Assembly (NCBI GenBank): GCA_031763025.1
Contig: JASSKH010000020.1
Location: 1,767,756 to 1,831,755 of the forward strand
DNA: 64,000 nt
Direction of reading: 5' to 3'
Origin: Macrocystis pyrifera
Lineage: Eukaryota; Sar; Phaeophyceae; Laminariales; Laminariaceae
Shown here: positions 23,037-64,000 of the stretch, piece after piece
Layout of the letters: each line of letters begins with the position of its first letter
Position numbering within the stretch: the first letter of the stretch is position 1
Translations under genes and position numbers: made by a program
Notes under the pieces: generated by a model
Told to the model about the DNA's origin: nothing
Databases searched by the model: none
Seen by the model: the letters and a program-made list of their open reading frames with translations, nothing else

Positions 23037-26000
23037 CTCTTCCCATAATCACGGCCTCACTTTGACACAGTGGATTCGTGCGGTGTACTCTGTGACGAGT
23101 AGCTAGCTACCGGTAACAACGTAATGTAGGTGTATTGGGATATCCTGTCGAAAAATTCGCTGCATCGAAATCTCGAGCTTTCGATGTTGTCGTATAAAAC
23201 GTGGTTTTTGCCCCCCATCCCCAGTCGCATCCCACGTGTTTTTTCATGCTGAACCTGCACGAAAGCTTCGATGTACCAAATATCGAAATAGTATCGAATA
23301 CGTCTTTTTTCGCGTTTGTCGGTACAGTGTCGAACTCGATTATCGTTCGAAATCTGATATCTGCTCGATATCCGACATCCAACACTGATTAAGGTATGCT
23401 ACATCCCTGTTTTTTGTTTTTGGTGCCCCCGAGAACCCATATGCAGCCACCTTATTAGTGATCAAAACTACGGTAACTTTGGTGGTATCAAACCGTCTAG
23501 GAGCGGTGTGAGCGCCCAGATGGACTTGTAGGAAGGATCACGTTTGCGCCCCGTGCCTGTGCCGTACAACTCCTGGCATCAACCATTGCAACTCGGACAG
23601 CAATTATGTTTCACCCCTCGATCACGCAGTTAGCGTTGCTGAAATCGGGTGTCACTTTTTAGCTACGATTTACTACTCCTCGGATTTCACAAGAGAATTA
23701 CTCGGTTGATGTGCTTTGGGTGCTGTACGGGTACGAGTATATGTCGGTCTTGTTCCTTCCTGCTCAAGTTTTTCTCTCCACGTTGTTTTTTTTGTTTTTT
23801 GTTTTCGCTTTGTCTTTGTCTGGTTTGCTTTGACCGATCTGATTGGTTATACCTGAACCACACACTCTGCTCTGGTACGGTATAGATATTTTTTTGGTTT
23901 GATTTGGTTGGTTTATTCGTTTTTGTGTTCAAATTGGTTGGGATCTGTTTAGTTTTGTTCGTTGGGTGTGTGTTTTCATCTGTTTTGTTTCTTAATGTTT
24001 TTTGTTTTTTGTTTTTGTTTTACGTGGTTTTCGTTAGCTTTCTTTTTTTTCATTCGGTTTGTTCCGTTATGCTTCGTTTTATTTCGTTGCATCTTTCGTT
24101 CGGTTCGGTTCGGTTCCACTTTTGTTTGTACTGGCTTAGGTTCGTTTCGTTCTGTTCCAGTTTGCCTTTCTTTTTGTTTTATTCCATGTCGTTTCGTTTC
24201 GTTTGCTTCGTTTTGTTGTGTTTTTTGTTATTGATATGTTCAAAAGGCAAAGGACGGGTTCGGGTCTCCAGACGCCACAGCGGCGTTCGTGTCCAACTGC
24301 GAAGCGGCAGGCGCCACGAAGCGGGTTGAGTACATGAAGCAGCTCATGAAGCACGCCACGGTGCATTCCTTCGGCGGCTGCCTTCACAACAGGTTAGTGC
24401 TATTATAGCTGTTGATATTTACTATGCCTAACTGGGCTTGACATGTGCAAATATGCCAGGGCACGGTAGTTCAAACCGTCCACGGCCGGCAGTCTAGGTG
24501 TGGTATACTATTTTTAGTGTGGCAACTCCTGAAGGTACGAGACGTTCTATGGGCTTAACATACTACAGTAGTTTTAGCGTGGGAGTTCTTGAAAGTTTTG
24601 AGGCGGTCTATCAATAGGATTAATGCACTAGTTTTAGTGTGGAAGCTCCTAAAGTTATGAGGCTGTCTACTACTGGGCTCAGTGTACTATTTTTAGTGTG
24701 GGAGCTCCTAAAGTTACGAAGCCTGAAGTTACGAAGCCTGCACAGCAGGTTTGTGCTATCAATAGCTATTGATATGTACTATGCCTAGCCGGGCTTGACC
24801 TGTGCAAATATGCCAGGACACGGTAGTTCAGACCGGCGACGGACGGCGATCTAGGGTGAGTCCACTAATTTTAGTGTGGGAACTCCTAAAGTTATCAGGC
24901 GTTCTATGAGCTTAGTGTACTACGGTAGTTCTAGCGCGGAAGTGCTTTACAGTTATGAGGCGGTCTATCAATGGGGTTAGTGCACTAGACTTGGTGTGGG
25001 AGTTAGTAAGGTTATGAGGCGGTCTTGTAATAGGCTTCGTACTACAGTAGTTTTAAGGTGGGGCTTCCTAAAGTCGCGAATGACGACGCTCCAAACTTCC
25101 GTCTCGTTGACATTCATGGTTTCACCGTCTCTTGTAGCGCAGCGCCATGTTTTTCTTCCGGCTAGAGCTTGGACTACGCCTTAGCTCTCTCCCGTCCCAG
25201 GATTGATGTACTTACTACAACCCCGGTTCATGCCAGGCGTTTTTTTTTTTTTAAATCGCTCGTCGGGTGTACGTGTTTGTGTGTATGGGCTATATGTATT
25301 GCGTGGTGCTGTATGTGCTGCAAATGTTTCATCACTGTTCGCGCTTCATGTGCTTGATGTACTGTAGATCGGTGTGCCGCAGCAGCTGGATGCATTGTGT
25401 TAGCCTTGTGTGCTGTCTGTGCTGTATGTGCTGCATGTACTGTACTACATCTGGGAGCTGTATGCTCTGTATGCTCTGTTTGCACTATACCATACGCACT
25501 GTATGTGATACGTGCAGCTTGTGATGTGTGCTGTGCGTGTTGTATATACTGCTGTGCCTGGTCTGTGCTGTGTTAGTATTCGTGCTTCGTGTGTGCTGTA
25601 TGCGCTTTGTGTGCTGTGCGTTCTGCATGTACTCTAGGCACCACTGTATGCACTACTTGTATGCGTCGTATTTGCTAATGGTATGCGTATTGTATCTGTA
25701 TGTGCTTTTGCTGTATGTATTGTATGCGCTGTATTTTCTTCGTGCACTGCATGCACTGCATTTGTTGTGGTCGTGTATTCTTTCGATACAACGCGGCATG
25801 CAGTGGTTGTGCTGTAGGGACTGTGTGCATGGAATGCGTGTACGTGCTGTGCGAATATAACGAGTCGACATTTTAAACCCGATAGATGAGCGACTACAGA
25901 GAGGGAGACAGCACCACCACACCACGACAAGTAGCTGCTGTCGTCGCGATCACAGACGACTGGCCGAGATTACCTGGTACCTACTACTGGCACGATGGTG

Positions 26001-29000
26001 ATAGCTTCCGACAGACCGACTGAAGTGTATGACGTTTGCTTCATACTTCAAAGACAATTCTGACCTACGATTAATAGGCAGACTTGAAAGAGTCAGAATA
26101 ACTATTTTCAAGAAAAAAAAGGCCGACTGCGACAAAAGAGTTGAACGGCCCACGACAACAACGGCCTACAACAACAAAGGACGACAGACAAGCTACCCTT
26201 CTACACCAGGTCGAAACAAGACAACAGTGACACTACTGACTTCTCCATACCTACAACCCGCCGTACCTTTTTTTCATCCAAGCACAGGTCACCCCATATC
26301 GTTCGGGTCGGGTGGTCAGCGTCTACTGTATAAAAATGCCTGGTGTCTCCTGCTGCTATCACTGCTTTCTTCTGAAAACCCCCGCAATGAACAATAAATA
26401 GCGGCAACAGCAGCATCTTCAAACAAGTAAAATTCTACCTAGCAAGTATCTATGTCGCGAGAGAATTTCCATACCCCAGTCCAACCTTGTATTAAATTGT
26501 AACACCTAGGGAACAGCAGGACCACCCTTGCACTGCTCTGCAATAAAACGTGTCGACGTTAAAAACATTCCCGACCTTTGTCGTCATTTTTTTGGCCAAC
26601 AGGGAAGAACCGATATTGGTGAAGGGCTCCGGAGCGACGAACCGGCAGACAAACAAGATCGAAGTTCTCGGGCGTTACAAGTTCCTCTTGGCATTCGAGA
26701 ACAACGACCAGTGAGTGAAGAAAGCTTCACACGTCGGAACCACAATCGATCCCCTCATCATTCTCTAAGAGAAATGCCTGCTCTGTATGACCGACCGGCT
26801 TTTATCACGCTCATGTTGCCAGACGGGGGCCCTAACATGTTCACATTTTATCTATTATACACACTAGCTTCCTGGGTTGGACCTGCATGCGCTCTACAGA
26901 TCCTGCACTACACATCTCAACGGCAGTTTATCGCTCTTGAGAAATCAGAGGTGGAAAACACGGACGACATTTGCAACGTCCTCTCCGTGGCTGAGGGGTG
27001 ATACATTGGTTGGTGCCCGAGTTGTAATGGTTGATGCAAGAGGTCGTACGGTACGGGCGCAACATGACCCCACGCGTACTGCGGGGCGCTCTATCTGCTC
27101 GTATACGGATGAAGACACCAAATGAATTAGTTTATTGCTCGCTATCTTGGGGTCCCGGGGGGGGTTGAAATTTCGATGGTATAGATCGATCGTGCTCTTT
27201 CCGATGTGTACTGTTTGATTGTGATATCCATATGCGTGTTATATATACCAGTCTGGTGGTGCATATTGGGCTGTTACGTGAAGTCGTCTGAAAGTAGAAG
27301 GTATGCAGTCGGATGTGTAGAACATGATATTCCCGTTTAAACTACACTATATACTTGTTCAAGCTTTATGTTTCAGGTAATATCAGGTACCAGTTGTGCA
27401 CTCTCCCTTTTTTAGCGTGTTTTTCAGGGCGGAGACAAGTTTTCTCGTTTTCACCAACAGCAGCAGCAACGACAACAACACCACGGCCGCCAACATAGTC
27501 AGCAGCACACCACCTTCACCAACAACCACCACCACCAGCAAATAACAGCAACAGCACCACCACGAATATCAACAGCAACACCAACACCACCACCACCACC
27601 ACTATCGAAAGCAATAGCAGCATCAACAACGCCAACAGCAACAACAGCAACAACAGCAACAGCAAGACCATCACGACCACGACCAATACCATCACCACCA
27701 GCAGCAACAACAGCAACTACAACTACAACAACAGCAGTGCCACCACCACCACCATGGCCACCGCCACCAACCACAACATCAAACTTACCGCCGCCTCCTT
27801 CCGATCTTTATGGTGCAGGTTGAACGACTACGTGACGGAGAAGGTGTACAACGGCCTCCAGTCGGGAACCCTCCCTGTGTATTGGGGGGCCAATAACGTC
27901 GACCAGTACGTGCCAAAGGGCTCCATTGTAAAGGCAAGAAACAACACACCTGACGGATGACGATCTAAACTACGACATCTATTCGTATTTGCTGGTTTCG
28001 TGCCATATCGATCTGATTTTGTCTAGGACGTCGACCGATTGTTTATAGGTTTTATGTAGGTTTTAGTGTGGAAGAGCACACCATGTGCGAGGACGATACA
28101 GAGCACAGCAAACAACAGGGTCTACGGCATAGGCTTGACTGCTGTGTCGCCGTTGACTGTCGTTGCGTTTGTTACGACGATCGAAAGTCCGTGTCGACGA
28201 TGGTCGCGAAAGTCTCTCTGTGCCCTCGGGGCCTGTCCGTTGTGTGAAGGTGTGGATGTTCGGTTTGATTTATTCCATCTCACTGTCAAACATCTAAATT
28301 TATTTATTTATTTGCGGTCGAACATGATCGTGTTGTGCTTGAATGGCGATCAACCCAAACCGTAACCTACGGTCAGAATGACCAGCAATGTAAATTAAGT
28401 CAATAGTGCCGCAGGACGGCAGCAACATCTAATATATATGTGTAGTGGGATCACAACCTTACGACAACATCTCTACAGGAACCTAATATCGGCGAGTGTT
28501 GTACATAGCAGATACCTCGGTAGGTCGGGGCGTGCCAACGGTAGATTTGCATGCAAACATGAATGAAAGCAAGTCTGAAAAGTCCGACATCGGCAACATT
28601 TACGAATACTGGTCATTGTAGGTACTTACGTATACCACCACTTGACGTACAACGAACAATACCTGCGGGTGTGTCACAGGAGTACTCGTTGTGCGTTTCA
28701 CCCTCGTGGGGACTTCAAAAGAGAAACTTGACAACTGACCAAGTCTGTTACAACAGCGGCCACTGCGTGATTTGGGTGGGGGATGATACAATGGTTGGTG
28801 TCGGGGTTACAATGGTTGATGCGCAAGGAGTCGTGTGGCACGGGCGCAACATGATGCTATCCGTACTTTTGGGTACTCACGCTGCTCGTATTGGATACGA
28901 TTTGATTATAACACCAAAGTTATCAACCATTGGTTCAGTCGCTATCCCGGTGTCCGAAAAGGTTTGATAACGTTTTCTACGACCTCCCGACTGACGAGCG

Positions 29001-32000
29001 CCACCGAGTTATGCGTGAAGAGCATCACCTATTGCGTACCGGTACAATATATGATACGAGGAAGGACCCTCTGTCCGTGCTGCCGTGCCCTCCAAACCCA
29101 AACATGTGCAAAACCATACTTCTCAAATCCTCTGTCCGTGCTGCCGTGCCCTCCAAACCCAAACATGTGCAAAACCATACTTCTCAAATACGTATGACAA
29201 CGTCGTCCTAGACTGCTGTCCAATACGTATGACGACGTTGTCCTATAGACTGCTGTATGGCAATATCAAGATTACTGCAAATGCTTTTCCTGCTCTTTTG
29301 CAGCAGTCCGTAGTCGTCTACTTCGAGTGTTGAGTTTTTTTTCCATATGCCTGGTAGAGCACAGGAGGCAGCAGGCAGAACGAAGAAACACGTCGCCCAT
29401 AAAGTAGACGGTGAAAGACATTCTTTTTTTCCGCCAAGAATCCCGATGTCCCACTACAATAAACCCTTATCTAGTATATGAAGTCCACAATATCTCCAAC
29501 CGCCGTCGCACCTGTATACTATTACAAGCACGATCAACATCCTCCCTGCTCTGTGTTCGATACTCCGCGACACTATACACTTCTGGTGCTGTTCACTCAG
29601 ACAAACGGAGCTACAGTAGCTCAAAATCCGATCGACCAATATCCCCCCTGCATAATGAACGACGTGGCAACAAAGCATCACAATATATCAGCATCATCAC
29701 TTCAAAACCACTCCTGACACCAAGCTTCATATTCAACATAACAAATATCAAATTCACAAATACCAAAATCCAGAATCTCGAGTCTCAAAATTAAAAGCAT
29801 CCTAATCACAAATACGAAATAAAAGACCGCAAACCAACAAGCTTCTGCTGGAAAGTTATCAATTTCCTCTCGCAATTTCATTATTCTGCTTTGCCAGGGT
29901 AAGAGGTCATCAATCACTGATATCGACTCGACGGTTTTCCCTAATCTGAATCTCTGTCAAGATATAAATCCTCCCAACTCGAAAGACAATAAATTTTTCA
30001 TAATAGAGTCCGGTGACGGGCAAAAACCTCGCTGCTGATTGGCCTTGCCAGGAAGTCCGCATATATCGGGCAGATCATGATCTATCTATCTACAGATAGA
30101 TGATCTAGTTCCTCTCCTGCTGTTGTGAGAGGTTGGTTGGGCAGGATCTGCCTTGTAGGGCAGATCCAATCCAGGTACATGTGCAATTAATAGAGCATGC
30201 AGATTGTATGGGTCCCACCCGGCAACATGAGCTAGATAATGCAAGATCGGGAAAAGATCTGCCTTGATGGATTTAGATCACGAACTGTGGGAATCGATTG
30301 TGTGTTGGAGGTGTGGAAGTCTGCATGTTGCTCCTCGGTCGGTACACGGACAAAAAAGGCGCAAAATATCTCCGAGGAAAACGGCCGTCCCTCAAAAGGT
30401 ATCGCACGTCGATGTGCTTCGAGTTCGGAGCACACGCTGGGTTTTGCGCCCGATGTCTCGCCCCCCTCGTAATCCTCGAAAACTTTGGTGCACGTCATAC
30501 GGCAATCCAGACAGGTAAACTACCCCCCCACACGTTTCGCGAAAGCATTGGCTCCTTTTGGTGTTGTCATTCAGTGCTCTGTAGGCACTCACTCCGCTTC
30601 AGTGGTGGTACAAAGCGTGACGCATTTCTGTGTATTCGAAAAACCAGCGTACGCTCGCGCCTGCACACATCACAGCCGCACCAGAAACCGAACCTCCTGT
30701 CGGTGGCCCTGCTATTAACAGCAGAGTTTGCGCGTGCAAACGCTACCAGGCCGAGTCCATCGCCCCGTCTAGACGTGATATTACGGGGGGGCATAGTAAA
30801 TAGGACCAAATATTGTTCGTAAGAATAGCGAAAAGTATAGGTTTTTTGTGTGTACCGTAGGTCCTATTTACTATGGTCCCCCGTGATCGTGTATCACAGG
30901 CGGTACGTGCAGACAGCAGTACTCGTACATACACTGCTGTCGTATTCGTATTCACTACCTGATACCTGGTACGTATTTATCCCTATTTACTCAACATCCG
31001 ATTTTGATGAAAATAGTACCACCGTAGGTGGAAGCTAAGCCCCGCATGGCCTACTGTAGGTATCTATCGACCTCATGGGTTGGGTACCTCACGAATACTA
31101 CGATGTAGTAAAACACAATCCCATGGGTTGGGCACCCCACTAATACTGTTAACACTGTCGAACAATGTAGTTAACACACAATCTCACGAATGCTGTGAAA
31201 AAAAGCAACGTCGAACCCGACCGTATTCGGGTAGGTGAACGTGGGATCCGACTGTATTCGAGTAGGTGATGTGTTGACGGGTTCCGTCAGTGGCCTAAAG
31301 GTGCAACCCGTACCGTAGCGCGGTTCTTACGGCATTTTTTTTGCATTGCGGTGTAGGCCCACGAGATGAGAAACAACCCACCTACAGTAAGAAGAATATA
31401 AGGCCCACTTTTGTTTGGACGCCAAGAGAATTGGATGTGACAATCATAATCAGCAGCGAGCGGTACACTGAATAAACGCTGAATAATAGCGTATGGTCAA
31501 AGGTCAAACAAGGATGGTACATTAAGGTTCTATGGCTTGCTCGGGTTACGAACGTTTGTTGTTGGCGGGCCCATACTGCAGCCGAGTATTAATATAATTG
31601 TTTGCGAGTAAACCCTTTCAAGACCGCAATCTCATTTAGGGGACAAACTACACAAAGTATGAGCAATTTGTCCCCGAAACGGGACTACGGTCCTACAAAG
31701 GATTATAACCCGTTTTAGGACTAGATGCCCATTTCATTGACAAGCTACTTCGAATTTGACCGAGATGTACGTTCCTGCTGTCCAATGCAGTCAGAGGTAC
31801 GCGAAAAAAAGGGAGAGAAAACAGAGCCACACTCGCCGCCATGTCGGAATTGAAAACAAACTAGTGGGTTGGTATTATTGTCACACATTATATAGAACAT
31901 GTTTTTTTTCGGTTTTGTTTTACGTGACTTTCGGACCCCCCCAGCCCCCTCCCTTGCCTGGAACTCGAAAAGAAAAGTGACACATCGATTTTTTCTTTTT

Positions 32001-35000
32001 TCGTTACCCCTGGGTGAGAGTGTGAATAACCTGTTCGTGGCTAATGGTCCTCCCCTCCCCCTCCCCGTCTCTACTCCCCCTCCTTCTTATAGGCGGCAGA
32101 TTTCTCTGGCCCGGAAGCCCTCGCCAAACACCTGAAGTTTCTCGCGGGAAATAAGGACGCGTACGAGGCATACTTCGCGTGGAGAGACGACCCCGAGGAG
32201 GAAGAACGTTTCCAAAATGTAAGACTATATATGTCACGTCATACGACCGACCAGAAGGGATGCTGCATGTTCGTCTTTGTTTTTCACTTGTGCAGGCGTC
32301 CTTAATTATCGTACGAGCGACTACCATGGTGTGCGATACGCAAGTTTTTCTTCCAAGGGCATTTTCGGTAGGGTATAAACCGGTCCCCGGGGTATTGGTG
32401 GGGCTAACCGGAATAGCGGAGGTGTCGGGTACATGTGGCGAGCTCGTACCGAACGTTAACGGAGTGTGGCAGTAGGGTATTGCTGAAGCCGTGCCGAACC
32501 TTTTACCGAAGACTTGGGTAGGGAATTTTTCTTGAGGAAATACCTCCGGTTTCCTTTGGTACAGGCGGAATTCTTCTTGAGATAAAAAAGGAAGGCCACG
32601 GATCGTACTTTCGGGGGGGGGGGGGGGGGGCAGGAGAGCCTACTGTGTGACCCCGGGTCTGAGCTATGACTATTGATCGGCGAGGGAGAGAGAAACAAGG
32701 GGCGAAGATAAAAAAAATATGTGATGGTAGGAAAAAGACGGAGTGCAAAGAAGCCCTTGCCGAGCATGCTTCTGGAAATTACTCTTGTTAGTGCCCAGGT
32801 GTTGGGACCGCAAATATGAGAAGTGCAGCCCTGTGTCAACCGTTCATTCTTGCCCGCCGGGTGGTCCAGCGGTACCATCCAATGCCGCTAGAGTTGATTG
32901 TCCGGAGCACTTACTGATATGATGGGCCGAGCCTGAGTCGGTCCGTAGACGGGCACTCATGAAGTATAGAAGCCCCGCAGGGTATGTGTACATGTGTATT
33001 ATCCACGTAGAACACACAAGAAAAGGAAGGTCAAGTCGAGCAAGAAAGTCAAGTAGCGGACATACCAAGTCACGACCCGTTAGATGGTCCACACAGAAAC
33101 ACTCATATTTCCTGTGTGGAACTCCCAAATACCATGTTTTCCTGCACCGAGTACGTGAGCACTCCGAACAGCTCCTTTTCTCTCTACTTGGTGAATGGGA
33201 TAACAAAACATCGCTCAGGATAAGATCCAATGTGATAAGCCAAGCATCACCAAAATCCACACCTAAGTTGTTATACTCATCATGATGAGTCAAGATCACC
33301 AACGCCTCCAACCAAACTCTCAGGCCTCAAAATCTTGACTTGAAATTCGAAAATAATAAAATGAGTCTTTCGAATGTCAGCTTCATACTTGAAACGGCAA
33401 AACTTGGCCTTGGGTTAAAGCAACCCCCAACTAAAACCCCTCAAGCTCAATCGCATAATTGTATTACGGGGGTCCATAGTTAGTAGGACCTATGGTATGT
33501 ATAAAAAGCTACCTGGTATATATTTGCGTATTTTTACTAACAATATTTGGTCCTATTTGCTATGGTCCCCCGTAATAGTAACATATCGAATTCAGAACTA
33601 AAAAAAATCACACATCATACAGATATGGAAACCAGCTCGCCAAGTCTCGAAAGTATGAGTAACAAAGTCTCAAATCTCAGATAGGTGGAAAATTAAACCT
33701 CATATATAAAAAATCAGAAGTCAGAGCTTCAAATTCTCAGAACATCGAACAACAGCGGCTTAAACGTCGAGGGAAGAAAGGCCCTACTGTAAGCCCTGTT
33801 GCGATAGAAATGAAAGCGCAAAGCGTAGTGGGGAGGGGGGAGGTAAGCCTGCGGTATGACCCCGGATCTGAGTTACGACTGAAAGTTGGAGGGAGAGAAA
33901 AGAAGGGCGAAGAAAAAGAATGGGAACAAAACACGCAAACAAAAAAACGTGGAGCAGATCAGATCAAATCAGATCCCCACGTCATGATCTAGATCTTCCA
34001 TAGCAGTTCTATTCCTGGTCTGTACGATCTGATGCTGTACACCCCTCGCAGAGCTCGTCTTGCCGGGGGTGTGTGAGCCATTCATATACTCTGCTCGATC
34101 GACTGCTGCAATATACACCACGTCTTCCTGAGTCGGATGTTGTGCTGTAGATATCCTTCACCGCATCTCATACTGGCGAGGGGAATATCTAGATGATCTG
34201 CTGCTGTAACGCGTTTCCTCTCCGAGGGGTGCAACATTCGGCCGTGCGCCAGCAGCGTAAGTATTAGGCTTCGTTTTTTTTTACCTCTGATTTCATGCGC
34301 GGTGTTCCACCGCCCCTTCGCCCCCGCTCTCCTTATCCTGGTATATCTTTCGACTCCCCCCTCCCCCCCAACTGGTTTGCGCCCGCCGCTTGTTGTTGTG
34401 TTCCGCTTTCTTTTTCTCGCGCCCCCCCCCATCTGCCTCTGCAGCTTGTTTTCGTGTTCCCCTATCTTTTCTATGCACGTCCGCCTGCCGACTGCGCCTA
34501 CCGTTTTGTGTTTGCCCGTTTTTCTTCCGTTGACTCCCCGTCCCACCCCCCACCGCCGCCTCCGGACGATTTGTCTGCCACTTGTTATTTGGCTCTTGCC
34601 CCTCCCTTCCCTTTTGTGTACGGCCTTCGCTGTTTGTGCCGCGTAATTTTTGTTCCCCTTCTTTGGTTCCCGCCCCCCTCCCAACCCGCTGACTGCGTCT
34701 GTCTTTTGCTGTGTTGCAATCTCTTTCCTTTCTTTGCCTTCCGTTCCTTGCCGCCCCGCCAACCCCCCGCCCCCCGACTGTCTCCGCCGCTTTTTCTCTG
34801 TGTTCCCCTTTCTTTTCCTTCCCCCCCCCCTCTCGGCTGCCTCTGCCGTTTGTTCCCCTTCTTTGGTTCCCGCCCCCCTCCCAACCCGCTGACTGCGTCT
34901 GTCTTTTGCTGTGTTGCAATCTCTTTCCTTTCTTTGCCTTCCGTTCCTTGCCGCCCCGCCAACCCCCCGCCCCCCGACTGTCTCCGCCGCTTTTTCTCTG

Positions 35001-35267: not shown

Positions 35268-35367
35268 CGGCTCTGACGGGTATAACATATTAGGGTATGC
35301 TTACTAGATCATTCATCTATTAATGGATGATCCTTGGAATCCTCTACATTATGCCGTTGTCATGTTG

Positions 35368-35745: not shown

Positions 35746-35899
35746 GAAGAAGCATGTTCGCAAAAGAGCCGCGTTACAAAGAGTATAGCAAAATTGTATC
35801 TGATCGTTCAGCAGATAGTACATACCAGGCGGATCTATCTACCCCGAAGGATCTAGGTCATGAGCTGAGGATCTGTCTGATCTTTATGATATTTTCCAT

Positions 35900-48655: not shown

Positions 48656-48749
48656 TGTCGGTCTGCCTGTCTATCCCCATGCCTTATATTTTCAAAGACT
48701 AAGTTTGTAAAACTGAGTCTCTATTTTGATAATTGCCAATCTGTCTGTC

Positions 48750-52343: not shown

Positions 52344-52655
52344 ATGGGCGGCGCCGTAGCGGATACCAAAGGCGGGAACAGCAGCGGAAACGACGGGCAA
52401 GGGCAGGGCACCACCATGGTGGCCAGCCCCAGACTGCTAGTAACTTGTTTCGAGCGGTTTGAAGCCGTCGTTGTGTCTGGTTCGCTGACCTTGGCCGTAA
52501 CGACTATTGTTTTTCTTCTGATTGTCTTGGGTTGGTCGGGGCGTGAGGGTTGTCCTTACGGCGGAATCGAATGGTGCGTGCTTACCCATGTCAGTAAATG
52601 GACGTTGGAGAAACACCAACCTAACCAACCAAAAAGAGTTCCCAACGGCAAATAA
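52344..52655 (+). CDS. Weak candidate 5' exon / open frame, unrecognised
   Basis: 103-codon frame with ATG: MGGAVADTKGGNSSGNDGQG, then VVVSGSLTLAVTTIVFLLIV, which looks like one membrane segment. The first 35 codons are GC-rich and less repetitive than the surroundings. No domain; the tail is poor. It could be the first exon of a gene whose rest I cannot find, or chance. Confidence 0.25.
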   Translation: MGGAVADTKGGNSSGNDGQGQGTTMVASPRLLVTCFERFEAVVVSGSLTLAVTTIVFLLIVLGWSGREGCPYGGIEWCVLTHVSKWTLEKHQPNQPKRVPNGK

Positions 52656-53208
52656 CTGCTGTGTGTGATGGGTTACGAAGCTCACATACACTCGGGATCC
52701 ATCTCTCTTGCCTCCTCCCGGGGGCATAGAACTACTTACTTAGATCTCGATCTCTGAGCGTGCTCGGTTGGTACATCCCTGGCCTCTCAGGGCTCCCACT
52801 TCGAAATCACCGCCTTTTATTACTTGCCGGACCTTTCCAGCGGGTCTTTGTTTTCTCTATTTCTGGTCGTACTTTCAGTCCTTCTTTCCTTTTTTCTTAT
52901 TTCGTTTCGTGTGCGTGCGTGTACTCCGAGCACGGTTGCGCGGGCAAACCCGGCACCGTCGCGGGTGTCAGCGGATGCTGGCAGGTAGAGGGGGAGTTGC
53001 AAGGAGCGCGGTCGCCGCTTTCGTGCCTAGGCGTCGCGTGTGCCTCGAGACACGAGGGATGCATCAATAGGCTCTGTCTGGCCTCCATTTGTGATTTTTG
53101 ATAGAGTACGTACGAGTATTTAAGGGTCGTTCAGGATTGTAAGATGATATTCAAGCGGTGCTTATTTTTGCGACCGGGCTGAAAGTCACAAGAGGGAGGT
53201 ACCCCGAA

Positions 53209-53394
53209 TGAGCACCAACAACGTCGAGCTTGCATTGAAGTCCACGGCGAGCACCGGGCTTCACGCGAGGCGGGCGACGGGGCTCACTGTGGAAGAGAGG
53301 CAGGAAAGCTTTACCCGGACTGAATCGGTGGCGAGATGGTTGCCAGAGGGGCGGGCGGCGTACGAGGCTGAGAGAGAAGCTCTGCTGTTTGATT
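53209..53394 (+). CDS. Weak candidate exon, unrecognised
   Basis: Starts ATGAGCACCAACAACGTC; the first 60 codons read MSTNNVELALKSTASTGLHA, RRATGLTVEERQESFTRTES, VARWLPEGRAAYEAEREALL, a balanced, Glu/Arg-rich composition. It then runs into a Phe-rich frame over T-rich DNA, typical of reading into an intron. No clear donor is seen. Function unknown. Confidence 0.35.
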
Positions 53395-53819
53395 TTTTCT
53401 TTTTTTCATTTCTTCTTTTTGACTGGTGTAATCCGGTAGTAAATTATTATACTCGTACGAAAGGGGACGGGGATTTTTTTTCTTTCAGAAATTGTCGGTT
53501 TCATTTTCATTGTTTTTACTGTGTTGCTGTGCCGTGCTGTGCTTTATATTTCGTACATACGAGTACAGACACAGAGCATGTCGAAATAAGAAAATAAGTA
53601 ACCTACCTGGGGTATGTACGTATGTACGACATGTGAGCAAGCTCAGCGAAAAACCGCCCGCGACGCGAAGCATATGTGGCGTCCGAGCTGTTTTCTCCTG
53701 AAGCATGGCGGCGGGACTCTTGGCATTATCAAATTGCTAGTTTGCAACTACTCATGAAAGAAACAATATTCGATCATGGACCTGTGTCCGCGTCGCATAA
53801 TTTGATGTACTTTTCCTTC

Positions 53820-53873
53820 CTGAGCGAGCGTAGCGGGCGGCGTAGGCCGCCTGCGGAGCGAAGCGCCTTGTAA
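53820..53873. other. GC-rich inverted repeat
   Basis: GAGCGAGCGTAGCGGGCGGC, GTAG, GCCGCCTGCGGAGCGAAGCG form an imperfect hairpin. No T-run follows. Confidence 0.5.
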
Positions 53874-55349
53874 GATACTTACTGTGCTCGAAGGCCTATC
53901 TCTCCTCGGAAAGTCTTCCAACCAATGAGGAACTACCCAGTATTTTTGTCGGAATCTTATTTGTGTATTTTAGAATGACATTCGTAAATAAGCTTACAGT
54001 ATACCAGGTAGGTCGTGGGACTGTTTTGCTGTACAAATATGTTTTTAGACAGACAGTTTTGGGTGATGTTGTATAGGGCTCTTCGAGTGAAGAGTCTGAG
54101 AAACAAATAGGGGCAACACAAACACCGTACGTTTACGTGGCATGCGTCCAGTATAAGCACGGCCTGCACAACAAACAATTAGTAGGGGGGGGGAGAGATG
54201 TACCAGGTGTATCCGGATCATCAGCCTATTATAGGCAGGCACTGGGGGGTGAACGTGTAATAACTGCTGGCGTGTGAGAAGAAAACAAACGCCCGCGAAA
54301 AAGCTCGTGATGGAGCTCAACCAAGCGGATAACTCGCTGCAAATAATAAAACAAACAAAACGTGTATAGCGCCTAGAATGCACCCACTCAACCAAGCGAA
54401 ACACGATGTGGCTTGTTTCGTCGCCTCGACTATTAACAAGTTGAAATCTACCACCTACCCTGTCCGCAATTTCGAGGACCGTGTTATGTTGTTTTTGCCG
54501 GCATAATATTTTAGTATTGTTATTGCCCTCGAAGAAAGGCATTCGAGCGCTGTTGTCAGTCTGCTTGTTGTCTTTTTTTGTTGTGAAGTCGAAGTCGGAG
54601 TTGATGAGAGTGACGAGAGAGACCACGTTGTAATATTATTTGGTAGCAAGCTTCTAGGCATTTTATTTTCATACTTTTCGTGTCTCCGAATTCGCAAAAT
54701 ATATACTTCGAAGTAATCACCTCTATTTCCAGTACGACGTTTATGCGTCCCACCAGGTCCCACCAAAGCCTCATCGCTCCAGCGTGTACGTACATGTATC
54801 AAGGTATCAGGTATCCATTTTACTTGTATATACTTACGTACAAATTACGAGTTTATTTATTTACTTGAGGAAGACTGCCGATGGAAGAGAAGGGGGAAGG
54901 AGGGAGAGGACACTCGCTCGCATGTCATATATATTACACATTATCAATATCGGAACTAATAAGCGTGAAGCATGCTGTAGTGCATAGTATTCATATCAAT
55001 ATCATACGCCTGCGGATTGCCTGCCGAGAATCGAACAGCATCATGTCTGCTAAATGGTCTCTGCGGTCTTCAGTCTCGAGTTTCGAATCTTGAGCAGCAG
55101 CAGTGTACGGCGGTAGCTGCGGTATTTCTGCAAACGAGCATCTTTCGGGATTGGTTCTGCGTTCTCCGGTTTGTTTTGTTATTTTTATTGTTGCACATCC
55201 TGACTCAGCAAAAACGCACAGCACACCGCACAGCTCTGCAGCAGCATGCAGCAGGACCAGCCGCACAGCTCCGCAGCAACAATCCGAACCTTCAACCCAA
55301 GTACAACCCGTCTCACGGTGGCACTCAACATGAACGGGGATAAGAGATC

Positions 55350-56030
55350 CCCAACAACCGGTCAGAGGGCTGAAGACTCTCTGTTGGCCAATGAAAAACA
55401 TGTCGGTATAGGTAAACGACAGGCTGGCAAGAGATCTCTGTACCGCGAAGTCAGGAATATTTGAGATACCCAACAAGCAGTTGTTCCGCAACGACAGTCC
55501 GATCTGTTTTCAACAGCGGAGTTATTATTTTAGTATCGAAATATGCGATGAGGATCGCGAAACGAAGAAAACATTACACAATAAGGAGGCACACAAACAT
55601 GAACGGTAATTAGAGATCCGCAACATGGTCAGAGAGCTGACGACGCTCTGTTGGCCAATGAAGAGCATGTCGTCGGTTGTTTACTACAAGGTAGTAAACG
55701 ACAGATTGACAAGAGATCGCTGTACCCCGAAATAATAGAGATCCCTCAAGGAATGCTCTTCTCGTTTTGGAACAGCAGTATGGTATCTATGCTCGTTCCT
55801 GCTCTGTCGCCCTGAAGGCATATATTCTATATACTCTTGTGCCCTTGACGAATTTTCAACAGCGGGGTTATTAGAGTTGGTACAGCAGCATCAATACCCG
55901 CTCCTGCTGTGTCGCCCTGAAGGTATAATATGCTCTCCTTGTTGTGCCCTTGACACTCTGCCATCGCTCGTCACATAAGACATCCCCAACAAACTTTTTG
56001 GTACTACAACAGTATTATATCTAACGAGCG
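55350..56030 (+). repeat. Spacer mosaic: GACAAGAGATC / CTCTTGTGCC modules
   Basis: Repeated GTAAACGACAGATTGACAAG, AGATCTCTGTACCGCGAA, GGTCAGAGAGCTGACGACGC and CGCCCTGAAGGCATA, each 2-3 times, matching reversed segments at 40285 and 46675. No gene seen. Confidence 0.65.
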
Positions 56031-56094
56031 ATAGCATGCTCTTGTACAATTGTTGCTGTTCTTCGGGGCGATCGTCACAAGAGCTTAGCGGGCC

Positions 56095-56410
56095 CACTTG
56101 GCCCTGCTGCTGTTGCCTTTGCGGCAGCTGCTGCTCCCTGGTGCCATCGCTCTCCCTTTGCACTTCACTCCATAGATCACCTCATCACCTTGCACCTTCA
56201 CCTCACCTAATACCTTGCACCTTCAACATATACAAGCTCTTGTTGTGGTCCTGCGTGTCTGCTGGAGCTGCTGATGCCGTTGCGGCTGCTGCCGCTCCCT
56301 GGTGTCATCGCTCCCCCTTTGCACCTTCACCTCATCATATACTTGTATCACCTCATCACTTTGCACCTTCACCTCACGTATCACCTCATCACATCGCACC
56401 TTCAACGTGT
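56095..56410 (+). repeat. ~170-bp tandem repeat with CACCTCATCA units
   Basis: TTGCGGCAGCTGCTGCTCCC near 56128 recurs as TTGCGGCTGCTGCCGCTCCC near 56278; between and after are short TTGCACCTTCACCTCAT units. Confidence 0.75.
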
Positions 56411-56690
56411 GCTCGTCTTGTGTACTTGATGTGATACCGTATGTTGGTATATGGTACATGGTATGATGGACGGTTTGAGATACTATATGGGAAAAGCCCG
56501 GTGTGGGATACGGGACATGGTATGGTATATGGGAAAGACACAAGTATGTGGTATGGTATGTTCACGGTATGGTACGTTGGTTGTATGGTACGATGTCGTG
56601 GATATATTTTATGGCTAAATTCGCCGGTGGTATGGTGTGTTGCAGTATATAAGGTCCGTAAGGGTCGAATACGTCGTACGAATATCATCT
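56410..56690 (-). repeat. GTATGGTATG pentamer tract with conserved head
   Basis: Reverse-complement partner of 42880-43150: TATATAAGGTCCGTAAGGGT, CGAATACGTCGTACGAATAT at its end. Confidence 0.72.
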
Positions 56691-56929
56691 GTTACGACCA
56701 TAATATATATCGACCATTGGAAAGTGTTCGAAAATATGAGCCCTGCGGATAGACAGAGACAGACCCAGTTTTACAAATTGAGAACAACAAATGTTTCCTG
56801 TATTGATGGTGATGGTGGCGACCTTGTCGGTCTTGCCCACGACACTCCAACGCAGAGCGCGAGAAGCAAATGGCGCAAAAAGAAAAAAAACGACAAACGG
56901 TCCCATACCTCGGACAGAATAACATCGAT

Positions 56930-57130
56930 TCCCGCGTCATGATCTACCCTAGATCTCCCAAGGTAGGTACGTTCCCGAATTGTGTTGAATCATGTTGCCG
57001 CGTGGAATGCGTCCAAAACAACGCATATTTCCTGGGTTGGAGCTGCACCAAGCATATGTTACACAACCTCTCACAACGGCAGCCTAGGCAGTATAGATGG
57101 TCTACTGCACTGTAGATCATGATCTGTGCA
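56930..57130 (-). repeat. GATCT-rich family, spacer copy
   Basis: Reverse orientation: TCATGATCTACCCTAGATCT, TGGGTTGGAGCTGCACC, ACAACCTCTCACAACGGCAG. Confidence 0.65.
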
Positions 57131-57199
57131 TGGCGTGAAAATGATTAGGCGAATGGAAGGTACGGCAATCACGAGTCAACCCGGGCTCTTTCAGGCGCG

Positions 57200-57570
57200 C
57201 CGTCAACGACTGCTCGTACTTATACCGCATCATACCTGTATCAAATTCAATATCGGGTGCCACTCCCCGCAAATATGCGAGTATGGGCTGGCTCTGCGCA
57301 AAACGAGGCAATCACAACTCAGTCAATGTCACCTAACGTGCGCCTTTGAAGAACGTCCAAAAAAATAGCTATCGGGCGCATCTAAACAACAAAGCAACCT
57401 GCCACCATGCCATTGAGTACCTCCGCTTCGCTTTGCGAACGACAACTGCAATTTATTGGACCCTGGTCGAACTGAAAAAATATAATATCTACCACTCTGT
57501 CCCGAAATATACCTACCGTTTTGGATCAATCACTCATATAAAAAAGGTCATTATATTCACCCGGGGCTAA
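57200..57570 (+). repeat. Spacer inverted repeat with conserved YRAHL frame, right member
   Basis: Partner of 44700-45040. 57346-57570 is open: NSYRAHLNNKATCHHAIEYL, RFALRTTTAIYWTLVELKKY. A short similar end (CTCTGTCCCGAAATATA) also occurs near 6210. Confidence 0.6.
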
Positions 57571-57599
57571 GGACTGGTGAAAATACACCATTAGGAAGT

Positions 57600-59340
57600 A
57601 CCCGATTTTGCCTAGCGTGATGCACTAATACTACCCCGATATCCATCCCCCAGGTACTGCTGTAGCGCAACGTACAGACCTCAGGTTTGACCGACATGCA
57701 TTCATACACCCGATAGTTGTTAAAGTATAACACGTACTGTAGATCCGATCTCGTCCAGAACAGACCCGATATATCCACAGCAATTCGCTATCCTGCAGTG
57801 CTAGCGCAGAATTTAATAGACCCCGGAGAAAGTTATACCCTCGAGTACTTCGCAATCTTGGCTACAGCAGGAATTTCCGTGCTCTAGACCCTATATTGTC
57901 CAGGACGCGTTGCTGTGTTTTGCATAGCTGCCTGTCGATCCGAGTTTCCCTAGAACGCCTCGCGGCTCAAGTAACATACAGTCGACTTCTTGCAGACCCG
58001 ACACTGCCTACTGTAGGATGCCCTGGCTATATCGTAAGTAGCGCGCCACTCACAGACCTGCGGTGAGTTTCAAAAAATCGTATCTTGTATATTATAATTA
58101 GCGTTAAAAAAAAATGGTATCTTACCTCTTTGCAGCTATTTCCACATGCGAACACCCGATACGTCGCTCCCACACTATCGTAGCTACTGTAAAGCACACC
58201 CGATGTCTGTCCAAAACATACCACAGGTATATCGGTTGCTGCCCCCCTAACGACACAAAATATTTGATCCGGTGCTGCTGTCCAGAGCTCGTTGCGATAC
58301 TAGCTACATAGCAGTTCCACCGAGATTGCCTAAAATTCTTCGCTATCCTAGCTATACTGCAACATTCGACCAAAAATGCTCTCGCATCCTACATAGCTAC
58401 TAAACGCACACGCAATGTTTCTCAAACCTCGTTGCTACCCTAGCTACTAACTGTAACGTCAAATGCATCTGACCCGATCTTGTCAACGCAACATACAACA
58501 ACTGCGTCATTCCCAAGCTAGCTCCGCCTACGTATAGACCCGATCTTGTCCAGTATTATTTGGAATCTTAGCTATAAATATAACCAAAAGTGTGTTTTGA
58601 TATCCTTAGCTAGCTCCTGTAGGTCTGATCTCGTCCAGAATGAATTGGCTTCGTAGTTACTGCTGTAGCACCAATTGTAAGTTTTGCGCTCCTTCTTACA
58701 GTAGCTCGACATATAGACCCGATACTTGTCCAAACTGTAGGTGGCTCTCTTAGCTATTATAGCGTCCCTCATTGGCCCGATCCTGCCCAGAATTCGAACC
58801 ACTTGTCGACTCGATATCAGTGCAAACTACTCTGCCATCCACCCGATATATCCAAACATGCTTCGCTGTAGTAGCGATCCCCGTATAGTGTCGGTCGAGT
58901 AGTGACGGCTGCCCGCTATAGCGCCTCCACAATCGCTTGACACAGATGGGATTAACCAGTGTGGCAGTGTGTGGAGTAGTGCCGGTTGCCGCTGTGGCAG
59001 AGTTCCGGTATTATTGCTGGCTGGTGCATACCGGCACTACGATAGACGACCATTACGGTATTGGTATCTTAGGTAGCGCCACACAAAGCAGACATGCATG
59101 TACTGTCTATGCCTAGCTCTGTCCTACCCCTACTTATAATAAACTCAACTTTGTCCAGAATGCTTCGCTATCCTGGCTAGAGCACTTCATAGACCCGATA
59201 CGGCATTGGGTTAAAACGCTACACAGCTAGCCCCACATTGAATATACCCGATGTACGTCCAAAATGCTCTGATGCTCTAGTAACAGCTGGGCGTCACGTA
59301 CAACAGGCCCCATACCTGTCCATAATTCGAATCCATCCTA
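57600..59340 (-). repeat. Degenerate minisatellite, right arm
   Basis: Reverse-complement partner of 38160-39520 (TAGACCCGATCTTGTCCAGA, GCTATCCTAGCTACTGTAGC), extending about 500 bases past the end of arm homology with more units. Confidence 0.83.
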
Positions 59341-59699
59341 GCCACTCCCAGGTGTATAAAATCAACTTCACAGACGAGAATGACGTCCGGCTTACCACAC
59401 GGTTGAGAGAAAACCCTGTTCAGCACAACGCGGAAACCTTGACCTTCGGAACGCCTAGCTGGTACAGCAGCACAGGAAACCCAACTATCCATGCCAAGTC
59501 AAACGAGCGCTAAAAAATGCTGGGCTCAGATTAAAGCAAGAAAAAAAAAAAAAAAATCGGGAGCCGTCATACTGAATCGACCAAAGAGCAGAACTCACCC
59601 GTTCCACAAAGTAAAAAAACCGAGCCTCACCCCCCAGGATCCTGTTTCTCAGCCCGTACGTAGGTGTCTTATACTGCCACTACTCAATATATGGCCGTA

Positions 59700-59752
59700 G
59701 TCGTGAGATCACGGACGCTCTAATCCCTACAATGCTGCAATGCCAGTGAGGT

Positions 59753-59818
<66 letters not shown>

Positions 59819-60095
59819 GGGGGTACTCGAACTCGATATAATGCAAGGCCGTAGTCTATGACCATTGGGGGGGGGGGCATCATGCATGGCCTCAGTCGTA
59901 TGGCCATAGGCCCTCGCATCCCTGCGATGCCGGGACGGAGAAGGTCGGGTTTTAACCGACCAGGCAGGCATTCCTTGCATCAAGTGCGAAGCGCCATGAG
60001 GTGTTGGGCAAGTCGCATGAAGGGTGAGCTGCATCCTACTAAGAGCCGCTTGCGAGGCGTACTTTCTTGCATATGGATGACTTAGAATAGTAAAA

Positions 60096-60135
<40 letters not shown>

Positions 60136-60140
60136 GGAGA
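59700..60140 (-). repeat. C-tailed element, right arm, with 65- and 39-G runs
   Basis: Reverse complement of the 37370-37830 structure. Homopolymers of 65 G (59753-59817) and 39 G (60096-60134) replace the mixed C/CT tracts of the left arm. Confidence 0.82.
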
Positions 60141-60307
60141 CTTCCGCAAATTTCTACGGCCATCATTAATCATACATTCCCCATATCGGACAGTTCAGAA
60201 CATGATCTGCCTGTGACCTGAATCATACAGATCAGCGGGGTGATGAAACGTTTGTATAAGTCGTGCACGACTTACAGATGATCACGTAGAGCACTGTGTA
60301 CAACGAT

Positions 60308-60407
60308 NNNNNNNNNNNNNNNNNNNNNNNNNNNNNNNNNNNNNNNNNNNNNNNNNNNNNNNNNNNNNNNNNNNNNNNNNNNNNNNNNNNNNNNNNNNNN
60401 NNNNNNN
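60308..60407. other. Assembly gap of exactly 100 N
   Basis: The base before the gap aligns to left-arm 37211 and the base after to about 30595, so roughly 6.6 kb of left-arm sequence has no counterpart. A fixed 100-N block is a usual placeholder for a gap of unknown size. Exons F and G of the second GT10 copy should lie here if the arm is complete. Confidence 0.95.
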
Positions 60408-60719
60408 GGAAGTAGTGCCTATAGAGCACTGGCGGACAACATCAAGGAGCCGATGCTTTGGCGATACGTGTGTGTGTGGGGGGGGGGGGGTTACCTGTCT
60501 GGATTTCTGTATGAAGTGCATCATAGTTTTCGAGGATAACGAGGGGGGCGAGACGTCGGGCGCAGAACCCAGCGTGTTCTCCGAAACCCAAGTACATCGA
60601 CGCGTTACTCCACGTTTTGAGGGACGGCCGTTTCCCGCGGAGGCTTTGTCATTGTCCGTGTACCGACGGAGGAGCACCATGCATAGTCCCACACCTCCAA
60701 CAGATTATCTGCAGGTCGT

Positions 60720-60905
60720 CGATTCCCGCAGTTCATGATCTAGATCCTTCAAGGCAGATATATTTCGGATACATCTTGTATGATCTAGCTCATGTTGCTG
60801 CGTGGGGCCCGTATAATCTGCATTCTCTATTAATTGTACATGTACCTGGATTGGATCTGCTCTACAAGGTAGATGTTGCGCAACCTCTCACAACGGCAGT
60901 ATCAT
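60720..60905 (-). repeat. GATCT-rich family, right-arm copy
   Basis: Partner of 30050-30330: TCATGATCTAGATCCTTCAA, GCTGCGTGGGGCCC, AACCTCTCACAACGGCAG. It ends at the MITE at 60910. Confidence 0.7.
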
Positions 60906-60909
60906 ACTA

Positions 60910-61020
60910 CTACGGGGGACCATACTAAATGGAACCAATTTTTGATAGTAAAAATAGGGAAAAAATGTAGGTTTTGGTGTATACCGTAGGTGCTATTTAC
61001 TATGATCCCCTGCTCCGTAA
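60910..61020 (+). mobile_element. MITE-like palindrome, copy F (right arm only)
   Basis: 111 bp with TA flanks. The matching left-arm position near 28255-30100 has no MITE, so this copy probably inserted after the arms were made. It abuts the junction of the arm's 1.8-kb length difference. Confidence 0.8.
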
Positions 61021-61356
61021 TAGATGATCTCCACAACTCCACACAACGGATGGACCCCGAGGGCACAGAAATACAGGCGCGACCATCGCCGACACGGCCT
61101 TTCGGTCGTCGAAACAAAGGCAACGATAGTCGACGGCGACACAGCAGTCGAGCCTAATACCGTAGACCCTGTTGATTGCCGTGCCTTGCGTCGCCCTCGC
61201 ACGTGGTGTGTCATTCCACACAAAAAAAACTGCGTAAAACCTCCAAATACCCTCGTCGGCATCCTAGACATAATCAGACTGGTATGGTATAAAACCAGCA
61301 AATACGGATATGTGTCTTTGTCGACATCGTCATCTGTCAGGTGTGTTGTTGCTTGC

Positions 61357-61471
61357 CTTTACAATGGAGCCCTTTGGCACGTAGTGGTCGACGTCTTTGG
61401 CCCCCCAGTACACAGGGAGGGTTCCCGACAGGAGGCCGTTGTACACCTTCTCCGTCACGTAGTCGTCCAAC
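61357..61471 (-). CDS. Exon E-like segment of second GT10 copy
   Basis: 115 nt, six differences from 27819-27933, five changing the amino acid (Asn-Asp, Gln-Leu, Asn-Lys, Asn-Asp, Gln-His). YVTEK and PVYWG are kept, as is the GC-type donor AAG|GCAAGC. A stop-free triplet-repeat frame runs into it from upstream. Confidence 0.9.
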
Positions 61472-61519
61472 CTGCACCACAAAGATCGGAAAGAAGTGGC
61501 GGATATTTTTGGTGTCATT

Positions 61520-61800
61520 GTGATTGGTGGCAGTGGTGGTGATGGTGGTACTGCTGTTGTTGCTGGTGGTGATGGTGATGGTACTGGTGGTGATGGCGGT
61601 GTTGCTGCTGCTAGTGGTGGTGATACTGCTGTTGTTGCTGTTGGCGCTAGTGGTGGTGGTGGCGCTATTGCTGTTGCTGCTGTTGCTGTCTGTTGTGGTA
61701 GTTGTGGTGGTGGTGGTGGTGTTGCTGTTAATTGCTGGTGGTGGCGATTGTTGGTGGAGGCGGTGTGTTGCTCATGATGTTGGCGGCCGCGGTGTTGTTG
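61520..61800 (-). repeat. CAN-triplet tract before exon E-like segment (right arm)
   Basis: Mirrored partner of 27456-27765. The exon frame is stop-free to about 61881 on the - strand, here Pro/Thr/Ala-rich, and again ends TSFRSLWCR. Confidence 0.88.
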
Positions 61801-62459
61801 TCGCTGCTGCTTGCTGTTGACGAAAAACGAGAAAACTTGTCTCGACCCTGAAAAAAAACGGGCTGAAAAAAGGGTGTACACAACTGGTACTTAACAGTGC
61901 CTGAAGTATCAAGCATACGTATCATGGACATCACAATCAAACAGTACACATGGGAAAGAGCACGATCGATCTATACCATCGAAACTTCAACCCCCCCTGG
62001 GACCCCGAGGTAGATGGCAAAAAAAATAATTAATTTGGTGTCTTCAACCGCATATGAGCAGATTGAGCGCCCAGCAGTACGCGTGGGGTCATGTTGCGCC
62101 CGTGCCCGGACGGCTCCCTTGCATCAATCACTATAACTCGAGCACCAACCATTGTATCGTCCCTCAACCCTGGAGAGGACGTTGCTAGTGTCGTCCGTGT
62201 TCCCCTTCTGATTTCTCAAGAGCGATAAACTGCCGTTGAGATGTGTAGTGCAGGATCTGTAGAGTGCATGCAGGTCCAACCCAGGAAGCATTTGCTTCTG
62301 CTAGAAAAAATGTGAACATGTTAGGGATCCAGTCCGGCAACATGAGCTCAATAAAAGTAGGTCGGTCATACAGAGCAGGCGTACCTCTGCGCTAAAATAC
62401 ATAAGAGCATGACGTGGGGATCTATTGTAGTTCCGACGTGTGAAGCTTTCTCCACTCAC

Positions 62460-62567
62460 TGGTTGTTGTTCTCGAATGCCAAGAGGAACTTGTAACGCCT
62501 GCTGACTTCGATCTTGTTCTGCCGCCGTTCCGTCGCTATGGCGCCCGGCACCGCTTTCGGTTCTTCC
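62460..62567 (-). CDS. Exon D-like segment of second GT10 copy
   Basis: 108 nt, same phases as its left-arm partner: acceptor CGCCAACAG, donor CA|GTGAGT. Encodes an altered basic stretch, then NKIEVSRRYKFLLAFENNNQ. Changes cluster in the first half; the FENN end is unchanged. Confidence 0.87.
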
Positions 62568-62649
62568 CTGTTGGCGACAAAATGGCGACAAAGGTCGGGA
62601 AATGTTCCCAAACGTCGACACGTACAACATGCACAGCATGAACACGCAT

Positions 62650-63090
62650 TCCGTGCACAGTCCCTACAGCACTATCACTGCATGCAGCAGAGTATAGAAA
62701 ACATACACCAACACAATGAAAGCAGTGTATCCAGCGCATGAAGCACATACAGCGCATACCATACATACAGCAAATGCGCATTCAGTGCATACATTATGTC
62801 TAGCAAATACGACGCATGTGGTACATACAGTGGTGCCTAGAGTACATGCAGCGCGTAGAGCACACAGAGCGCATGGTATAGTGCATACGTAACATATAGC
62901 ACATTGGGCTGTTACAATACACCTAGATGTAGAACAGTACATGCAGCAAATACAGCAATACAACACATGGCTAATACAAAGCATCCAGCAATTGCGGCAC
63001 ACAGAGCACACGCAATGCATACAGCAGCATACAATACGAGCAGCACATCCATACAAACACATAGACCCGACGCGCGATGAACAAAAACAA
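62650..63090 (-). repeat. Degenerate CATACAGCACA-type repeat, right arm
   Basis: Reverse complement of the 25260-25860 array, shorter and reshuffled. Confidence 0.82.
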
Positions 63091-63097
63091 AGACAGG

Positions 63098-63178
63098 AAG
63101 GAACCGGGGTTGAACCAAGTACATGAATCCTGGGACGGGAGAGAGCTAACGCGTTGGCTAACCTCTAGACGGAAAAAG
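63098..63178 (-). other. tRNA-like relic or SINE head, right arm
   Basis: On the - strand: box A-like TTAGCCAACGCGTTAGC and box B-like GGTTCAACCCC about 40 bases apart. I could not pair a convincing acceptor stem, so it is probably a relic and not a working tRNA. Confidence 0.32.
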
Positions 63179-63239
63179 AAAACATGGCGCTGCGCTACAA
63201 GAGACGGCTAAATCACGGATGTCACGGGTAACGGCAATT

Positions 63240-63690
63240 TTCGGCGGCGTCCTCCCGACTTTAGGCACTCCCACACTAAAACTAGTACAATAAGCCTATT
63301 ACAAGACCGCCTTATAACTTCAAGAACTCACACGCTATCAATAGAACCAATACATGAAGCCTATAGTAGAACGCCTCATAAATTTATGAACTCCCACACT
63401 AGAACTACAGTATTAATAGTACATTACGCCTGTAGACCGCCTCATAACATTTGGAGCTCCCACACTCAAGACTAGCACACTGAGCCTATTAGTAGGCTAC
63501 CTCAGAGCTTTAGGAGCCCTCACAACAAAACTTGTGCGGTAGCCCTATTAATAGATCGCCTCATAAATTTAAGAACTCCCACGCTAGAACTACTGCAGTA
63601 CATTGATTCGATAGAACGTCTCCAAACTTTAGGAGCTCCCACACTGAAAATAGTACCCTAATCCTAGACCGCCGTCTGTCACCGGTCTGA
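63240..63690 (-). repeat. ~60-bp minisatellite in second GT10 copy (right arm)
   Basis: Reverse-complement units of the 24430-25130 array (AACTCCCACACTAGAACTAC, GACCGCCTCATAA), about 7 units. The duplicated exon-flank segment found in the left arm is present once here. Confidence 0.85.
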
Positions 63691-63761
63691 ACTACGTGTC
63701 CTGGTATGTTTGCACAGGTCAAGCCGGCTAGGCATAATAAATATCAATAGCTAGCACGAAC

Positions 63762-63906
63762 ATGTTGTGCAGGCAGCCGCCGAAGGAATGCACCGTGGCG
63801 TGCTTCATGAGCTGCTCCATGTACTCCATCCGCTTCGTGGCGCCTGCCTCGTCGCAGTTGGACACGAACGCCGCTGCGGCGTCTGGAGACCCGAACCGTC
63901 CTTTTC
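63762..63906 (-). pseudogene. Exon C-like segment of second GT10 copy
   Basis: Encodes GSPDAAAAFVSNCDEAG and HATVHSFGGCLHN on the - strand. About 11 of 146 positions differ from 24247-24392, including the missing G near the start. The donor is weaker than in the left copy. Confidence 0.85.
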
Positions 63907-64000
63907 CTTTTGAAAAAAAACAAACAACAACGCAGGGCGCACAAAAACGAAGCATACGAAACGAACGAAGCGACGTGAAATGAAAAGAAAAGACAGGCAA

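Follow-up and report, generated by a model that had tools for sequence, protein, structure and literature searches.

An inverted repeat in the giant kelp genome as the probable junction of an ancient triplication of a GT10 fucosyltransferase block

Local duplication of a block with an inverted member is common in eukaryotic genomes, and an identity of at least 90% is the usual threshold for segmental duplications that count as recent. In inverted interstitial triplications, the model of origin-dependent inverted repeat amplification (ODIRA) places the inverted copy in the middle, in the order +, -, +. Recombinogenic long inverted repeats have long, nearly identical arms and a short spacer; long perfect palindromes are usually unstable, and diverged arms recombine little. 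The locus considered here lies in a window of 64,000 nucleotides from the giant kelp Macrocystis pyrifera (bases 1767756-1831755 of contig JASSKH010000020.1, hereafter C201). All coordinates are window positions, so that negative values and values above 64000 denote flanking C201. An initial annotation had described a large, old inverted duplication in this window, with two GT10 fucosyltransferase genes facing each other across a spacer. The comparisons below indicate that this palindrome is very probably the junction between two members, copies A and B, of an ancient local segmental triplication in the nuclear genome.

The published Macrocystis assembly, built from PacBio reads of a single haploid female gametophyte with Hi-C scaffolding, totals 537 Mb in 35 scaffolds plus 188 contigs (PMC10498591), which fits the 223 sequences and 537,376,219 bases covered by the genome-wide searches. 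The self-comparison of the contig with its flanks that the initial annotation had proposed was run over 244 kb of C201 (-39999 to 204000, the window plus 18 flanking 10-kb pieces) and returned collinear blocks, not merely scattered repeat matches. Three copies of one block emerge, in the order +, -, -. Copy A extends from -13521 to 45488 on the plus strand (1..45488 inside the window) and shares 36 collinear blocks with B and 34 with C. Copy B spans 56518-99833 on the minus strand (56518..64000 inside the window), with inverted matches to A and direct matches to C at an offset of about 92 kb. Copy C, also on the minus strand, occupies 149531-192842 plus an island at 137745-138588. The A-B chain aligns 20.5 kb in its 36 blocks at 84.3% gap-free identity (77.9% counting gap columns), the A-C chain 25.1 kb in 34 blocks at 84.3% (78.0%), and the B-C chain 21.2 kb in 34 blocks at 84.4% (76.7%). 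Each chain thus runs far beyond the 1 kb expected of a segmental duplication and includes introns and non-coding flanks. At 84% gap-free and 77-78% gapped identity the copies fall below 90%, and the triplication is therefore called old.

Old local segmental duplications with an inverted member offer the closest likeness, with several block copies per scaffold in mixed orientation, introns and flanks included, and with indels and repeat insertions. The kelp copies differ from these in nothing essential; they are older than the recent segmental duplications usually catalogued. Inverted interstitial triplications of the ODIRA type likewise have three neighboring copies with an inversion, but the kelp order is +, -, - rather than +, -, +. 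In the proposed history, a block some 43-59 kb long with one intron-rich GT10 gene would have been copied to give three neighboring copies, with A inverted beside B and C, which follow each other in direct order at a distance of about 92 kb. Substitution (about 16% of gap-free sites), indels and repeat insertion would then have driven the copies apart, while their GT10 exons have remained 88-90% identical and retain open frames and matching splice sites. The shared orientation of B and C might suggest that they are the closest pair; this is not supported, as the three gap-free identities are alike (84.3, 84.3 and 84.4%). Of 15916 sites compared across all three copies, 1237 are shared by A and C alone, 1189 by A and B, and 1004 by B and C. 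The order of the duplication events cannot be read without an outgroup.

Within the window itself, minus-strand self-BLAST resolves eight main blocks, collinear and 70-84% identical, between 24162-39494 on the left and 64000-58199 on the right. The outermost pairs are 24162-24722/64000-63439 and 37982-39494/59686-58199, and the best block has E = 0.0. The left arm matches the right arm over 7208 bp on the minus strand (19 pieces, some overlapping), whereas four other genome stretches gave 932, 0, 233 and 177 bp against it and the right arm reversed without complementing gave 0 bp. Because these controls fall so far below the right-arm value, the inverted match is real and not due to chance. 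A 59-bp minisatellite at 24569-24716 matches the right arm along several diagonals. The reverse-complement match of the arms is thereby confirmed, as is the arrangement of the two GT10 genes 3' end to 3' end, with which exon positions and strands agree. The duplication is indeed old and inverted; it has three copies and not two, and the arm limits first given (24040-39520 and 58130-64000+) capture the inner parts of arms that reach out to -13521 and 99833. The 18.6-kb spacer shrinks as well. Collinear A-B homology continues inside it (44674-45000/57557-57234 and 45291-45488/56725-56518), so that only about 11 kb (45489..56517) remains as an unmatched loop, with no collinear A-B match and scattered repeat matches only.

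Each copy carries part of a GT10 gene. Exons that keep an open frame and agree in splice phase were recovered four times in A, four times in C and three times in B. In copy A, on the plus strand, exon A (24271..24392) is supported by its frame and a GT donor; position 24271 marks only where the frame common to the three copies is taken up. Exon B (26603..26710) has an AG acceptor and a GTGAGT donor that are kept in B and C. Exon C (27819..27933) matches PF00852, has splice sites including a probable GC-AG donor, and encodes the donor-site motif DYVTEK, and exon D (32093..32218) covers PF00852 positions 103-142 between splice sites. In copy B, on the minus strand, exon A (63762..63883) matches PF00852, exon B (62460..62567) was placed by copy comparison, and exon C (61357..61471) again matches PF00852 and has splice sites. 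The third donor, at 27933/27934 in A, 61357/61356 in B and 160708/160707 in C, reads AAAG|GCAAG. It is probably GC and not GT in all three copies (a probable GC-AG intron), a choice preferred because the spacing is then as in other GT10 proteins. The three exon-D matches of the genome-wide search each contain one TAG, which in A and C falls within the splice acceptor directly before the exon.

The joined exons score 128.1 (A), 80.9 (B) and 119.1 bits (C) against PF00852, for which the curated cut-off is 23.9. Their best solved relative is 9s6a, a glycoprotein 3-alpha-L-fucosyltransferase (E = 2.8e-21). DYVTEK is present in all three copies and aligns with YVTEK of the solved fucosyltransferase 5zoi; the conserved GT10 donor-site residues are given as Tyr246, Glu249 and Lys250 in 2NZW (PMC11468063), a numbering taken over from that source and not recomputed. 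The kelp exons resemble the GT10 alpha-1,3-fucosyltransferases 9s6a, 7yro, 8d0o, 5zoi and 2nzw in the PF00852 domain and the Y-x-x-E-K donor-site motif, and differ from them in coming as three linked copies. Each gene probably encodes a Golgi alpha-1,3-fucosyltransferase that acts on glycoprotein N-glycans, with activity and location both predicted. Genome-wide, the GT10 exons gave 8 matches (12 of 12 candidates scored), 7 of them in the three copies or in a redundant contig discussed below. A diverged GT10-like exon stands elsewhere (44.4 bits), at 12007678-12007887 of scaffold C223, from which three 10-kb pieces were examined; used as a guide to upstream GT10 exons, its flank yielded only GT1-type matches below the cut-off.

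The exons seem somewhat better kept than their surroundings, with gap-free differences of 10-12% against 16% for the whole block. Over 115 codons, the A-B exons are 90.4% identical in nucleotides and 80.9% in amino acids, with synonymous (dS) and non-synonymous (dN) divergence of 0.061 and 0.114 and a dN/dS of 1.86. The corresponding values are 87.9%, 79.6%, 0.197, 0.115 and 0.58 for A-C (157 codons) and 88.4%, 78.3%, 0.164, 0.116 and 0.71 for B-C (115 codons). The exon divergence of 5-8% first estimated was thus too low, as the three exons found in both A and B differ at 9.6% of nucleotides and 19% of amino acids. Several observations weigh against the preferred account of the locus. The ratio dN/dS is not clearly below 1, on small counts whose significance was not tested, and there is no clear signal of purifying selection at the protein level. 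No N-terminal GT10 exon or Pfam domain was found in the three plus-strand frames of copy A over 14300-24200 and 24001-30000, and scanning all three copies for motifs of N-terminal and last exons gave nothing, so that the exons recovered make up a partial gene. Exon D of B is absent from the assembly, none of the 8 genome-wide matches representing it. Just upstream of its exon A, B is also one base short relative to A and C, and it may be broken if the missing base falls inside the exon. However, two assemblies of this very DNA also differ by many short indels (60 in 37.6 kb).

The absence of exon D from B coincides with a scaffold gap of 100 N at 60308..60407, the sole run of N in the 244 kb of C201, which lies inside copy B where that exon is expected. 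The inverted match of the right arm stands, but its apparent continuity does not, the gap having been overlooked in the initial annotation. The A-B match halts at 60307 (37210 on the left) and resumes at 60414 (30589 on the left), leaving 6.6 kb of the left arm unpaired. Since copy C retains about 5.8 kb in the matching interval (152365-158196), about 6 kb of copy B is probably missing at the gap. We infer that both sides belong to one copy. Were the scaffold join wrong, the 2.1 kb preceding the gap and the sequence that follows would come from different copies, B as drawn would not exist and a further copy would be hidden; the 100-N gap of a Hi-C scaffolded assembly leaves room for such an error, and contig placement can evidently fail here, as a redundant contig appears to have been misplaced on another sequence. 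This is nevertheless unlikely. The two sides of the gap are collinear, non-overlapping and on the same strand with respect to both A (37210, 30589) and C (152365, 158196), and no further copy of exon D or of the 3' flank turned up, the latter among 40 of 1696 candidates scored. Very long G runs occur at 59753-59817 (65 bases), 60096-60134 (39 bases) and, farther along C201, 196870-196939 (70 bases). The first two lie less than 600 bp from where the contig ends at the gap, and such runs may be the reason that assembly halted there.

The redundant contig sits at the start of C221, of which six 10-kb pieces (1-60000) were examined. Positions 17-37582 align with window 60307-22766 over 37.6 kb (23 mismatches, 60 indels), and 37553-41175 carry the match on to 19308 (7 mismatches, 67 indels). 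In all, C221:1-41175 repeats window 19308-60307 in reverse, with 30 mismatches in the two aligned pieces and many short indels, and ends at a 100-N gap (41176-41275). Seventeen of the 23 mismatches fall in G-rich simple sequence (22812-23013), five in or beside other homopolymer runs and one beside a one-base indel (25119). The stretch is probably a redundant contig attached there by an assembly error; a very recent duplication is less likely, and an allele it cannot be if the source was haploid as published. That a duplicate of this region does exist could suggest that the arms themselves represent a pair of alleles, or one stretch assembled twice and joined head to head. The probability of this is very small: the true duplicate differs by just 23 mismatches in 37.6 kb, whereas the arms are 84% identical gap-free, and the published assembly comes from a haploid gametophyte (PMC10498591). 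In the C221 contig, too, A, the spacer and the beginning of B lie in one piece without a gap, which suggests distinct positions for the arms, although the reads behind it are presumably the same. An allelic or haplotig origin of the arms was accordingly rejected, in line with the initial judgment that they are not an assembly duplicate. Shared transposable elements inserted in opposite directions are a very improbable source of the match, if slightly less so. The arms do contain dispersed repeats, among them one of about 170 bp in the 3' flank (about 38621-38796) with relatives on many scaffolds, and a 110-bp family. However, collinearity of the blocks extends over more than 40 kb and takes in GT10 exons whose splice sites are conserved, and the full 3' flank recurs nowhere else among the matches scored. 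Of the 42 matches listed in that search, 36 represent only about 110-210 bp of the inner dispersed repeat, and the whole 1.5-kb flank is confined to A, B and C (in C as two pieces) and to two occurrences on the redundant contig. A match by chance or through repeats alone was rejected on the strength of this search and of the controls.

The initial annotation had implied that the palindrome is unstable, which the present values do not support. Exact inverted A-B matches, with low-complexity sequence dropped, number 33 of at least 30 bp, 8 of at least 50 bp and 1 of at least 100 bp; the longest (167 bp, at 2948/88550) lies outside the arms as first drawn. Compared with recombinogenic long inverted repeats, the arms are only 84% identical gap-free, the longest exact match is 167 bp and the loop is about 11 kb. 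With arms this diverged and a loop this long, palindrome-type instability would, on established knowledge, not be expected. We see no role of its own for the palindrome.

Some parts of the block depart from its overall pattern. The stretch 2484-3492 is 90% identical to C201 89011-87992 (A-B) and 59051-59690 is 93% identical to 150977-151611 (B-C), both above the overall 77-78%; these tracts may reflect later gene conversion or constraint. Three pieces of A within 6296-9428 match copy C at 167272-171670 but run opposite to the remainder of C and out of A's order; they represent either later local rearrangement or dispersed repeats. In the intron between exons B and C, 45-bp windows at 26870-26970 reach 100% (A-B) and 98% (A-C) identity. 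A reverse-transcriptase fragment (PF00078) lies upstream of gene A at 21079-21516. In a search for other genes in the block, six frames of -3600 to -2599 and three plus-strand frames of 2400-5100 gave no Pfam match above cut-off, and neither tRNA genes (ARAGORN) nor Rfam families at gathering score were found within the window. EsV-1-7 domains are plentiful genome-wide (at least 150 matches, with 150 of 1586 candidates scored), an abundance typical of brown algae.

In a survey of carbohydrate enzymes across brown algae, GT10 averages only one gene per genome; the survey takes this low copy number as an argument against fucan synthesis by GT10, and places brown algal GT10s near the plant GT10s of protein glycosylation (PMC11468063); its main text does not mention Macrocystis. 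Sargassum horneri has three GT10 genes and S. fusiforme one (PMC10606923), so that three genes in the giant kelp are less special than they might appear. According to a 2026 review, none of these families has a brown algal member that has been characterized biochemically (PMC13380512). The main text of the kelp genome paper contains no word beginning with fucos or fucoidan (PMC10498591), and no published description of this cluster was found among the matches listed in titles and abstract openings on GT10 in Macrocystis and on brown-algal or inverted duplications.

Taken together, the triplication is an ordinary local block duplication with an inverted member, and as a palindrome the locus is equally ordinary. 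It matters in a modest way: gene number and structure at this locus are distorted in the current assembly, as a gap lies inside gene B and gene A is doubled by the contig on C221, through which it was counted twice in the genome search. A long shot is that GT10 was locally amplified to three genes and that one or more paralogues took up a new acceptor, possibly cell-wall fucans, which would account for paralogues that differ by about 20% in amino acids in the domain exons at a dS of only 0.06-0.20. If true, it would bear on the published case against GT10 as a fucan synthase, which holds that the family is not multi-copy.

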